Source: Eubacteriales bacterium (lineage in GTDB: Bacteria > Bacillota > Clostridia > Oscillospirales > Oscillospiraceae). From it: a stretch of 33,532 nucleotides of DNA. The position numbers and the translations under genes were made by a program. Where the stretch lies: positions 1-33,532 of the forward strand of contig JAUMWJ010000024.1 in the NCBI GenBank assembly GCA_030529655.1, read 5' to 3'. The notes under the pieces are model-generated. The model was not told the DNA's origin, did not search any database, and worked only from the letters and a program-made list of their open reading frames with translations. Below are positions 6,471 to 10,966 of the stretch, piece by piece (the stretch's first letter is position 1; every line of letters starts with the position of its first letter).

Positions 6471-6947
6471 TTATAGATCGATTTGATAAAAGAGGGCGCG
6501 TGTCAACGGATTGTTGTTATAGCGAGGAATCTGATAGAATCCCAGTTTGTCATAAAGACCGAGGGCGGCTGTCATGGCAGGAAAGGTGTCCAGCCGCACG
6601 TGGCGGTAACCGTAATTGCGTGCATCTGACAAAAGTTGCGCCATCAGTTTCAGACTAAGACCCATACCGCGAAATTCGGGATAGAGATAAATGCGCTTCA
6701 CCTCGCCGTATTCTGTGTCCAGCCTTGTCAGTGCGCCCATACCGGCAATTTCGCCGTCACAGGATATGACATAGATACTGCCATAGGGCGGTGCGTATTT
6801 TTCGGGCAAATGGGAAAGCTCATCGTCATAGCTTTGGTTGGCAAGGCAGGCGCGCATGCCGTCATCCACATCATACAGCATGGCGGCATAGGACGCGAAC
6901 AGAGGGCGTAAAAGTTCGGGGCGGTTCTGTGCGGGAATAAGCTCCAT
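6471..6947 (-). CDS. GNAT-family N-acetyltransferase
   Basis: The product belongs to the acetyl-CoA-dependent GNAT family. The acetyl-CoA loop is visible as VKRIYLYPEFRGMGLSLKL, followed by a motif B-like HVRLDTFPAMTAALGLYDKLGF. The start at 6947 gives 158 residues (MELIPAQNRPEL) and follows AAAGGAG. An in-frame ATG eleven codons upstream lacks a ribosome binding site. It leads an apparent two-gene unit with alaX. The acceptor substrate cannot be predicted. The pairing with a tRNA-editing enzyme is suggestive but proves nothing. Confidence 0.9.
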   Translation of the reverse strand: MELIPAQNRPELLRPLFASYAAMLYDVDDGMRACLANQSYDDELSHLPEKYAPPYGSIYVISCDGEIAGMGALTRLDTEYGEVKRIYLYPEFRGMGLSLKLMAQLLSDARNYGYRHVRLDTFPAMTAALGLYDKLGFYQIPRYNNNPLTRALFYQIDL

Positions 6948-7121
6948 ATATACACACTCCTTTGTACCATAGTGTGCCATAAAACGGGGAAAAGTGCAAG
7001 AAAAAAGGACAGCGCGCAGCGGAGAATTCCCATCTCTACCGCGGGTAGGTACAAATCTGCGTAAAACTGTGCTATGCTTTGATTCAGGAAAAGCTTTTCC
7101 GCCTAAAAAGGAGGAATCAAT

Positions 7122-7712
7122 ATGAATCAGTATGTGACAGGCTCCATGATCAGAAAGAGTCGCGAGGCAAAAAAGATGACACAGGCAGAGCTTGCCGCGG
7201 CGTTAAAGGTCAGCGACAAGGCGGTTTCCAAGTGGGAAACCGGCAGAAGCTACCCGGATATCACCTTGATTGAGCCGCTTGCCAAAGCACTTGGGGTTTC
7301 CACCATCGAGCTGCTTTCGGGCGAAAGCGTTACCAACCGCAACCGTGCTTTTGACATGAAAAAGGTCAGAATCTATGTCTGTCCCATTTGCGGCAATGTC
7401 ATCTTTGCCGCCGGCGAGGCGGTCATAAGCTGCTGCGGTATCGTCCTGCCGCCTCTCGAGGCAGAAACGCCGGGTGAGCATTGCCTTTTCCCGCTCAGAG
7501 TGGAAAGGGTTGAGGATGAATATTTCGTCAGTATAGATCACCCCATGGAAAAAGAGCACTATATCACCTTTATGGCGGCGGTGGCAGGTGACCGTGTGGA
7601 AATCCGGAAGCTCTATCCCGAAGGACCGGCAGAAGCCAGATTTAAGATCTGTCAGACAGAGTTTCTTTATTACTACTGCAATAAGCACGGTCTGTATGTC
7701 AAAAAAATATAA
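7122..7712 (+). CDS. XRE-family regulator fused to desulforedoxin and superoxide-reductase-like domains
   Basis: Residues 5-62 form a Cro/C1-type helix-turn-helix (MTQAELAAALKVSDKAVSKWETG). Residues 83-110 match a desulforedoxin FeCys4 site: Cys87, Cys90, Cys104, Cys105 as CPICGNV...SCCG. Residues 118-196 match the catalytic domain of desulfoferrodoxin/superoxide reductase, with HPMEKEHYI and YYCNKHGL. The five iron ligands are present as His120, His140, His146, Cys186 and His189, with spacings of 20, 6, 40 and 3, almost the family's. The Glu-Lys pair that precedes the first His in enzymatic SORs is Gly-Glu here, so sensing rather than catalysis is plausible. The start follows AAAAGGAGGAATCAAT. 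It is divergent from the GNAT-alaX unit and ends at a strong terminator. Fusions of this type are known in anaerobes; targets are unknown. Confidence 0.92.
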   Translation: MNQYVTGSMIRKSREAKKMTQAELAAALKVSDKAVSKWETGRSYPDITLIEPLAKALGVSTIELLSGESVTNRNRAFDMKKVRIYVCPICGNVIFAAGEAVISCCGIVLPPLEAETPGEHCLFPLRVERVEDEYFVSIDHPMEKEHYITFMAAVAGDRVEIRKLYPEGPAEARFKICQTEFLYYYCNKHGLYVKKI

Positions 7713-7735: not shown

Positions 7736-7765
7736 AAAAAGGACGGCATATGCCGTCCTTTTTTT
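7736..7765. terminator. Bidirectional terminator between the HTH-SOR gene and aspS
   Basis: A perfect 13-bp inverted repeat (AAAAAGGACGGCA / TGCCGTCCTTTTT) with a 2-base centre has A-tracts and T-tracts on either side. It can terminate both the plus-strand regulator gene and the minus-strand aspS. Confidence 0.88.
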
Positions 7766-9607: not shown

Positions 9608-10966
9608 TTACTTTTCCACAATAACCTTGCCTTGGTTCTTCTCATCGATGCCCTTGCGGATGAGGGCGATGGTATCGCTATGCCCCAGCTTGGTCTGCTC
9701 GCCGGAGGTCATATCCTTGCAGGTGACGATGTTCTGTGCGATCTCGTCATCGCCCAGGAACAGCACATAGGGAATGGACAGCTTGTCGGCATAGTTCATC
9801 TTGGCCTTGAATTTCTTGGCCTCGGTGTAAAGCTGGGTGCGGATACCGGTCTGACGCAGCTTGGTGGCCAGTGCGATAGCAGGTGCCAGATCATCGGTCA
9901 TGGGCAGGATCAGCACATCAGCCGGAGCGGTGGGCAGCTCGGGATTCAACATACCCTGCTCGCCCAGTACGTAGAACAGACGGGTCAGACCGATGGAGAT
10001 ACCCACGCCGGGCAGTTGACGGTCGGTGTAATACTCGGCCAGATTGTCGTAACGACCGCCGGAGCAAACAGAGCCGATCTCGGGGTGATCCAACAGAGTG
10101 GTTTCGTACACCGTGCCGGTGTAGTAATCAAGACCGCGTGCGATGGTCAGATCCACGGCGAAATTGTCCTCGGGCACGCCGAAAGCAGCCAGATACTTCA
10201 CCACGGTGTTCAGCTCGCTAAGACCCTCATCGAACTTCTCATCACGACCCTCGTAGCCCTTCAGAGCAGCCAGCACTTCTTCGTTGGTGCCGCGAATGGC
10301 GATGAACTTGAGAATTTCATCTGCCTGCGCGTCGCTCAGACCGCAGTCGTCCATCAGGCAGGCGCGCACCTTTTCTGCACCGATCTTGTCCAGCTTATCC
10401 ACGGTACGCATGATGTCGCCGCTCTTCTCGCTCAGACCCTGCATGGCGTAGAAGCCGTTGAGGATCTTGCGGTTATTGACACGGATCTGGAAGCGCTGTA
10501 AACCGAGAGAGGTAAAAGTTTCGTAGATAATGGCAGGGATCTCGGCCTCATTGGTGATGTCCAGCTTGCCGTCACCGATCACATCGATGTCGGCCTGATA
10601 GAACTCACGAAAACGGCCGCGCTGAGCCCGTTCACCGCGATAGACCTTGCCGATCTGATAGCGGCGGAAGGGGAAGGAGAGGTCGTTGTAGTGCAGTGCC
10701 ACATATTTGGCCAGGGGTACGGTCAGATCGAAGCGCAGGGCGATGTCGGCATCGCCCTTATTGAAGCGGTAGATCTGCTTTTCGGTATCGCCGCCGCCTT
10801 TTGCCAGCAGCACTTCGCTGGCCTCGATCACAGGGGTATCCAGCGGGGTAAAGCCGTAGCGTGCGTAAGTAGAGCGCAGAATGTCCATCATGCGTTCCAT
10901 CTGCTGCTGGGGCTGAGGCAGCAGCTCCATAAAGCCGGACAGCGTCCGGGGCGTCATTTTTGCCAT
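9608..10966 (-). CDS. hisS: Histidyl-tRNA synthetase
   Basis: This class II synthetase charges tRNA-His. The 452-residue protein has a start PRTLSGFMELLPQ, class II motif 2 YRGERAQRGRFREFYQ, and both histidine-binding signatures: LDYYTGTVYE and CSGGRYDNL. Motif 3 is GVGISIGLTRLFYVL. The C-terminal HGTP anticodon domain starts near PADVLILPMTDDL. The anticodon domain and both His motifs exclude the HisZ paralogue. It starts 18 bp after the upstream membrane-protein gene; CTTT-AGGAA-type ribosome binding bases (AAAGGAACAC) precede ATG. It is under T-box control with aspS. Confidence 0.96.
   Translation of the reverse strand: MAKMTPRTLSGFMELLPQPQQQMERMMDILRSTYARYGFTPLDTPVIEASEVLLAKGGGDTEKQIYRFNKGDADIALRFDLTVPLAKYVALHYNDLSFPFRRYQIGKVYRGERAQRGRFREFYQADIDVIGDGKLDITNEAEIPAIIYETFTSLGLQRFQIRVNNRKILNGFYAMQGLSEKSGDIMRTVDKLDKIGAEKVRACLMDDCGLSDAQADEILKFIAIRGTNEEVLAALKGYEGRDEKFDEGLSELNTVVKYLAAFGVPEDNFAVDLTIARGLDYYTGTVYETTLLDHPEIGSVCSGGRYDNLAEYYTDRQLPGVGISIGLTRLFYVLGEQGMLNPELPTAPADVLILPMTDDLAPAIALATKLRQTGIRTQLYTEAKKFKAKMNYADKLSIPYVLFLGDDEIAQNIVTCKDMTSGEQTKLGHSDTIALIRKGIDEKNQGKVIVEK

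Follow-up and report, generated by a model that had tools for sequence, protein, structure and literature searches.

Proteins in which a helix-turn-helix (HTH) domain precedes a desulforedoxin-type (Dx) Cys4 site and a superoxide reductase (SOR)-type domain form the HTH-Dx-SOR class of SORGOdb, in which 19 proteins were catalogued in 2011 (PMC3116461). SORGOdb gives CXXCX15CC as the Dx pattern in general rather than as a rule for the HTH-Dx-SOR class (PMC3116461). In a literature search of partial coverage, we found no functional study of HTH-Dx-SOR proteins. Repressors of the P22 C2, 434 and lambda cI type have operators that are dyads adjoining their own promoters, and their C-terminal half is an oligomerisation or cleavage domain. 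TrtA of Treponema denticola resembles the protein analysed here in being an XRE-type regulator of an anaerobe with a link to oxygen stress (PMC12724145). We rejected it as a relative because it comprises 104 aa and lacks a Dx-SOR part; similarity to functional proteins was not detected past residue 81 in the study describing it (PMC12724145). Filifactor FA796 was also set aside as a comparator, as it is described as a 1Fe-SOR and the relevant part of its description does not mention an HTH.

The gene of interest lies at 7122-7712 on the + strand of the window, i.e. the whole analysed stretch of 33,532 nucleotides (contig JAUMWJ010000024.1), and encodes a protein of 196 aa, an assignment based on the open reading frame and on Pfam, TIGR00320 and PDB matches. 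Residues 10-64 (7149-7313, + strand) match Pfam HTH_3 with an E value of 9.8e-15. In a PDB search, the P22 C2 repressor 1adr aligned with residues 1-69 (E 5e-5), and this match rises to E 4.2e-10 with the profile of the relatives' alignment A2. The Cro/C1-type HTH is followed by a desulforedoxin-like Cys4 site, CX2CX13CC (Cys87, Cys90, Cys104 and Cys105; 7359-7439, + strand), recognised by column conservation, and by an SOR-like domain (7440-7697, + strand) with the ligand columns His140, His146, Cys186 and His189, recognised by Pfam Desulfoferrodox (PF01880; residues 137-192, E 1.2e-5) and by alignment with the PDB desulfoferrodoxin 1dfx (residues 80-192, E 1.5e-10). TIGR00320 (desulfoferrodoxin) matches residues 81-192 (E 9.2e-14) with 51.7 bits, below the model cut-off of 146.9; the Pfam Dx model PF06397 matches weakly, with an E value of 0.028 that is below its cut-off; and the A2 profile matches 2ji2 with an E value of 1.8e-15. 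Judged by these comparisons, the homology to desulfoferrodoxin is far above chance. The sequence-only reading of this DNA had proposed a Cro/C1-type HTH in an open reading frame at this position and a divergently oriented GNAT gene beside it, and both are borne out, the latter by an open reading frame at 6471-6947 on the - strand (Pfam E 1.1e-16). Downstream, a purpose-written script detected a terminator-like hairpin with A/T tails (7736-7764, + strand), and hairpins of this type were found 3' of the gene in 13 of 70 relatives tested vs 0 of 70 shuffles; a terminator tool with other rules reported no terminator at 7736-7764. In the window, the gene is probably monocistronic.

How does this protein compare with the described systems? 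As in the SORGOdb HTH-Dx-SOR class, an N-terminal HTH is followed by a desulforedoxin-type Cys4 site and then by an SOR-type domain, and the earlier statement that this fusion is a known architecture agrees with that entry (PMC3116461). By contrast with the SORGOdb pattern, the spacing in the Cys4 site is X13 rather than X15, the Glu-Lys pair is missing and the first His is shifted (PMC3116461). We treat the window protein as having the HTH-Dx-SOR architecture; the 19 SORGOdb proteins, which we compared by their description, may share the X13 spacing and the missing Glu-Lys. Compared with desulfoferrodoxin and other 2Fe-SORs (1dfx, 1vzg, 2ji1; TIGR00320), the protein is homologous over residues 80-192 and largely keeps the iron ligands, but it scores below the TIGR00320 cut-off, sits across a long branch with 100/100 support, lacks Glu-Lys and carries an additional HTH. 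Finally, it resembles the P22 C2, 434 and lambda cI-type repressors (HTH_3) in the sequence of its HTH and in having a dyad by its own promoter, whereas its C-terminal half is a metal-type domain.

We assembled relatives from two sources. From a genome scan that returned at least 568 relatives among at least 596 stretches, 80 loci were taken; these were chosen by peptide patterns, several of which contained ligands, so that ligand counts are biased upwards. Loci from a survey of 197 genomes of the order are free of this selection bias. In that survey, among the matches listed, 195 of the 197 genomes were matched in some way, in most cases through the HTH only, and 32 had a full-length or nearly full-length relative; these 32 carriers include partial or broken genes (G035, G086, G124 and G193). 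The resulting set comprises 108 distinct family proteins, after removal of a copy of the window (L082) and of identical proteins (L083 and L085); alignments A1 and A2 were built on 65 and 64 of them, respectively, and the tree on 56. In this tree, which also contains 30 stand-alone Dx-SORs, a 100/100 branch divides the family from the stand-alone proteins, in an analysis with few columns and a bootstrap that had not settled. The family gene is present in Treponema (Spirochaetota) as well as in Clostridia. At ten Treponema loci (L004, L009, L019, L029, L042-L044, L049, L058 and L075), the gene is accompanied by its operator and is close to the clostridial forms. It is likely from these sequences that gene and operator moved as a unit by horizontal transfer between Treponema and Clostridia.

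Among the 108 proteins, the Cys4 columns are kept almost without exception (Cys87, 108; Cys90, 108; Cys104, 108; Cys105, 105), in line with the earlier assignment of a desulforedoxin site to these four residues, and so are four of the SOR ligand columns (His140, 108; His146, 107; Cys186, 107; His189, 106). The window spacing CX2CX13CC is shorter than the CXXCX15CC of 1dfx, and the 30 stand-alone Dx-SORs are likewise longer there. The first His is different. Five SOR iron ligands had been claimed, and four of these stand, but His120 does not line up with the first iron ligand of the family: in 101 of the 108 relatives, that His occupies the column of Phe123 of the window protein, three residues past His120, and the A2 profile aligns the E-E-H of the family on the E-K-H of PDB desulfoferrodoxins. 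In the window, L002 and L003, the His comes three residues earlier and is followed by a 3-residue insertion (GEHCxxPL), and in four further relatives the first-ligand column holds Q (two), D (one) or a gap (one). In the ligand spacings 20-6-40-3, which had been likened to those of desulfoferrodoxin, the 20 needs correction. The spacing is 17-6-40-3 in all 101 in-register relatives, and the value of 20 is coincidental because the insertion after His120 offsets a 3-residue deletion of the family before His140. Thus, the description of the SOR-like module as complete is weakened for the window protein, and with the first His displaced, the iron site there may be different, which we count against the reading that we prefer below. 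Cys121, beside His120, is restricted to the window clade (3 of 108). One relative, L108, lacks the first His, His146, Cys186 and His189, so that one of five SOR ligands is left, yet it retains the operator at 18.7 bits. This looks like regulation without a complete metal centre, and we likewise count it against that reading.

The residues in front of the first His bear on whether these proteins are enzymes. In the window protein, Gly118-Glu119 directly precedes His120 and there is no Glu-Lys. Across the family, 1 of 101 members (L008) has EK in front of its first His, as compared to all 30 of the stand-alone Dx-SORs from this order, and the position of the Lys is acidic in 59 of the 101 in-register members. 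Alignment across the family indicates that the loss of Glu-Lys is family-wide while the metal ligands are retained. Work on the D. baarsii SOR is said to show that the Lys matters for catalysis. Superoxide reduction is reported, in the title of a paper, for a Nanoarchaeum equitans SOR that lacks the Glu, and the Ignicoccus hospitalis SOR, which lacks the Lys, is reportedly active as well. The loss of the pair argues for a non-catalytic role, but it is no proof of one because an SOR is reported to work without the Glu. The earlier suggestion that Gly-Glu hints at sensing must be read in the same way: the alteration is real and family-wide, but the hint is weakened by these two reportedly active SORs.

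An alternative, therefore, is that the protein is an autoregulated working enzyme, in which the Dx-SOR part retains reductase activity towards superoxide or some other small oxidant and the only role of the HTH is to set the supply of the protein, with or without metal sensing. In favor of this alternative, a protein whose own gene is its only detectable target needs a further output, activity has been reported for an SOR that lacks the Glu, and the 1.6 Mb genome of the organism (97% complete) has a single PF01880 match, namely the 7122-7712 gene. Two rubrerythrin and two Fur-family matches are present in the same genome. If active as an SOR, the protein would be the sole SOR-family protein found in this genome, as judged with a model that misses some divergent family members (e.g. 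none is reported in G002). Besides the family-wide replacement of Glu-Lys and the often acidic Lys position, the shifted first His of the window protein speaks against an enzyme, and so does the presence of a stand-alone SOR match, besides the family gene, in 22 of the 32 carriers. The latter co-occurrence (the figure for non-carriers is 80 of 165, giving p 0.05, with G142 and G174 counted on partial matches) is not used in support of our preferred reading. On balance, we regard a working enzyme as unlikely, but with a substantial chance of being correct.

The main new result lies upstream of the gene. The arms CTACC and GGTAG had been proposed as a candidate operator; they are present at 7036-7040 and 7044-7048 (+ strand, separated by gcg), within a weight-matrix site at 7032-7056 that scores 16.7 bits, and all but one of the 105 family promoters have the corresponding site. 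The dyad abuts a poor -35 hexamer, TACAAA (7050-7055, + strand), assigned from the -35/-10 spacing in the family. Conservation identifies an extended -10 element, TGC TATGCT (7070-7078, + strand, with the -10 hexamer at 7073-7078), and the leader contains a ribosome-binding site, AGGAGG, by sequence (7109-7114, + strand). A sigma-70 scan reported no promoter on the + strand, and the promoter call is based on conservation. In the family, a site of the form CTACG-N3-CGTAGGT(T/A)G abuts a poor -35 upstream of 104 of 105 genes; the 105 upstream regions leave out the 5'-truncated L100, L105 and L111. The -35/-10 spacing is 17 in 99 of these 105 promoters (best of 15-19), and TGn precedes the -10 in 72. 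An exact dyad CTAC-N5-GTAG occurs in 48 of the 105 upstream 180-bp regions, as compared to a maximum of 7 for any 4-bp dyad in five shuffled sets, and CGTAGGT occurs in 65 of the 105, where 1.0 is expected. With a 25-bp weight matrix (consensus approximately nACTCTACGnnGCGTAGGTTGCnTT), 104 of the 105 family regions exceed 6 bits vs 1 of 315 shuffles; this comparison is flattering, as the matrix was trained on the same 105 regions, but the exact-dyad counts are independent of the matrix. From these comparisons, the CTACC/GGTAG arms are part of a strongly conserved candidate operator-promoter.

The window, L002 and L003 have the operator-promoter blocks in common, with little conservation further upstream. 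In L002, the operator site is immediately preceded by a terminator-like hairpin and, for that reason, probably serves only the family gene in that locus. The 5' leaders of all three loci also share a further perfect palindrome, GGAAAAGCTTTTCC, in identical form (7087-7100, + strand, in the window), and the window copy is the only exact match in its genome. With a transcription start at approximately 7085, this palindrome would cover about +3 to +16. The three loci with this palindrome are also those with the insertion after the first His.

The sequence-only reading of a one-component redox regulator suggests a set of target genes, such as an oxidative-stress regulon. In the genome of the organism, TCYACNNNNSGTRGGTW has one exact match, which is the 7036-7048 site; allowing up to one mismatch, there are 10 places in all vs 34 for the reversed control. 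In 64 genomes, the strict pattern gave 7 exact matches, spread over 7 of the 32 carriers, with none among the 32 non-carriers. The remaining 25 carriers, including the genome of the window, are without a strict exact match, and nearly all tested family promoters hold a variant site; the strict pattern is thus insensitive and would overlook such variants in front of other genes, and we count this against the preferred reading. Among 391 genomes of the class, the strict pattern gave 4 matches, one already known from the 64-genome set; of the three others, the one in G450 precedes a family gene, the one in G307 precedes an operon that comprises an FMN_red flavoprotein gene and a family gene, and the one in G082 is within a reverse-transcriptase ORF. 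In total, 9 of the 10 distinct exact strict sites precede a family gene, its split copy or its operon, and one is in the reverse-transcriptase ORF. A looser pattern gave 13 exact sites in the 32 carriers, of which 12 belong to a family gene (one of them split) and one to a remnant. With this looser pattern and one mismatch, there were 66 matches in the 32 carriers vs 127 control matches; by position, 17 of the 66 belong to family genes (in 16 genomes), one to a remnant and two to promoter copies, and the other 46, counted by position only, are fewer than the control matches.

Several sites were rejected as regulon members. The site at C1:1294097 in G168 precedes a truncated HTH remnant that is followed by an FMN_red-type gene, that on C38 in G193 precedes the 5' piece of a split gene, and that in G082 is inside the reverse-transcriptase ORF. 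The second sites in G194 and G139 resemble copies of the promoter (one mismatch) with no family gene behind them, in G139 judged by sequence alone. We count these two near-copies, as well as the G307 site, against the preferred reading. In L156 and L186 (about 9674-9785), the family genes are split or truncated and the conserved promoter site is still there.

The weight matrix, which was applied to individual loci, detected no site above 10 bits at the two rubrerythrin and two Fur-family loci of the same genome or at 30 stand-alone SOR loci, of which the five from carriers (L115, L116, L119, L133 and L137) bear on the question; this restriction to individual loci, too, we count against the preferred reading. 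Of the earlier proposal, the HTH-Dx-SOR fusion stands, but the sites appear dedicated to the protein's own promoter, with no others found at the sensitivity used. The joining of an HTH to redox-type metal sites, the G307 operon with its FMN reductase and the possibility that variant or half sites escape the pattern searches are all compatible with a stress regulon. The looser-pattern counts below control and the absence of sites above 10 bits at the rubrerythrin, Fur and SOR loci speak against one, and we consider a regulon improbable. Because exact sites are found almost only at the family gene or its copies, self-control is favored over a stress regulon. One private site per gene copy is the best-supported reading of these searches, with weaker, variant or half sites possible elsewhere.

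Does the protein itself bind this site? Residue 40, placed by analogy at the end of the recognition helix, covaries with motif position 16: Thr occurs with A or G in 97 of 97 cases, Arg with T or C in 7 of 7, and there is one Asn with A. Gln42 is accompanied by C at motif position 6 in 31 of 34 cases, and 17 of the 30 best residue-site pairs involve residues 1-70, a segment that accounts for 32% of the tested columns. This pattern would fit binding of the 7036-7048 dyad by the HTH. However, this covariation is confounded by descent because all seven Arg40 proteins fall within one ten-row subclade of the tree, and we count this against the preferred reading. An independent-pair test of residue 42 yielded one supported pair and was dropped as evidence because the supported pairs were too few.

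Another regulator might bind the conserved site and control the gene instead, which would be compatible with a covariation confounded by descent. In the same genome, the XRE paralogue L149 (contig C13 of G000; gene at 1554-2420) has an HTH that is 63% identical over residues 7-66 and a weak look-alike site, TCCACtaccGGTGGATTG (1498-1522, 11.8 bits), before its own start. By eye, the HTH of this paralogue is followed by a membrane-type stretch. Speaking against control by another regulator are a site that accompanies the gene in both Bacillota and Treponema and exact strict sites in 7 of 32 carriers vs 0 of 32 non-carriers, a comparison of limited sensitivity. We judge it to be quite improbable, and binding by the protein's own HTH remains our preferred reading.

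The neighboring genes were compared in the 62 of 81 loci in which the gene was recognised, using longest-ORF picks rather than gene calls. The commonest neighbor type, GNAT at scattered positions, recurs in 13 of the 62 loci, and no other type exceeds this number, which speaks for the preferred reading. A flavoprotein gene of one family adjoins the family gene or its remnant in four loci by tblastn (L191, 764-1447; L075, 5594-6271; L037, 2947-3621; L186, 9841-10509), with an FMN_red/Flavodoxin_2 assignment by Pfam for L191 and L186; in L061, there is a partial flavoprotein match 1.2 kb away. The adjoining flavoproteins are possible electron donors or transfer partners, which would fit a working enzyme. 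The neighborhoods also bear on the idea that the Cys4 and His/Cys sites report the supply of iron or zinc rather than oxidants. Such a metal-availability sensor would fit ligands that are conserved without the catalytic pair, but no obvious metal-transport cluster was seen among the most recurrent neighbors (22 clusters inspected by eye in the 62 loci), and we give this idea little credence.

Based on these comparisons, we suggest a model in which the protein regulates itself. In this model, the cI/P22 C2-like HTH would bind as a dimer to the dyad at 7036-7048, abutting the -35 of its own weak promoter. Lambda cI activates PRM from a centre near -43, and a dyad next to a weak -35 combined with an extended -10 is the position of a class II activator. 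The centre of the window dyad is also near -43, a position that would allow activation or repression, so that the sign of control is conjectural. The C-terminal FeCys4 and Fe(His/Cys) sites would change state with superoxide, O2 or the redox state of the cell, and the changed metal state would alter DNA binding; metal binding and the signal are both presumed. As a result, the cell could tune the amount of this single protein. Redox-dependent self-control by an HTH protein is the simplest account of the data, and we lean towards a self-regulating iron (redox) protein of this kind, albeit with modest confidence. More tentatively, and with rather less than even confidence, we propose that an SOR fold that has lost Glu-Lys serves here as a dedicated oxidant sensor in a one-protein loop, with a private operator that is kept across phyla and no other targets.

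Taken together, our findings suggest that the protein mainly controls its own production, perhaps upon oxygen stress, in a gut-type anaerobe. Given the exact operator, the own-gene pattern of its sites and the family-wide loss of Glu-Lys, a single protein and a single short DNA would suffice to test whether an SOR fold senses superoxide.
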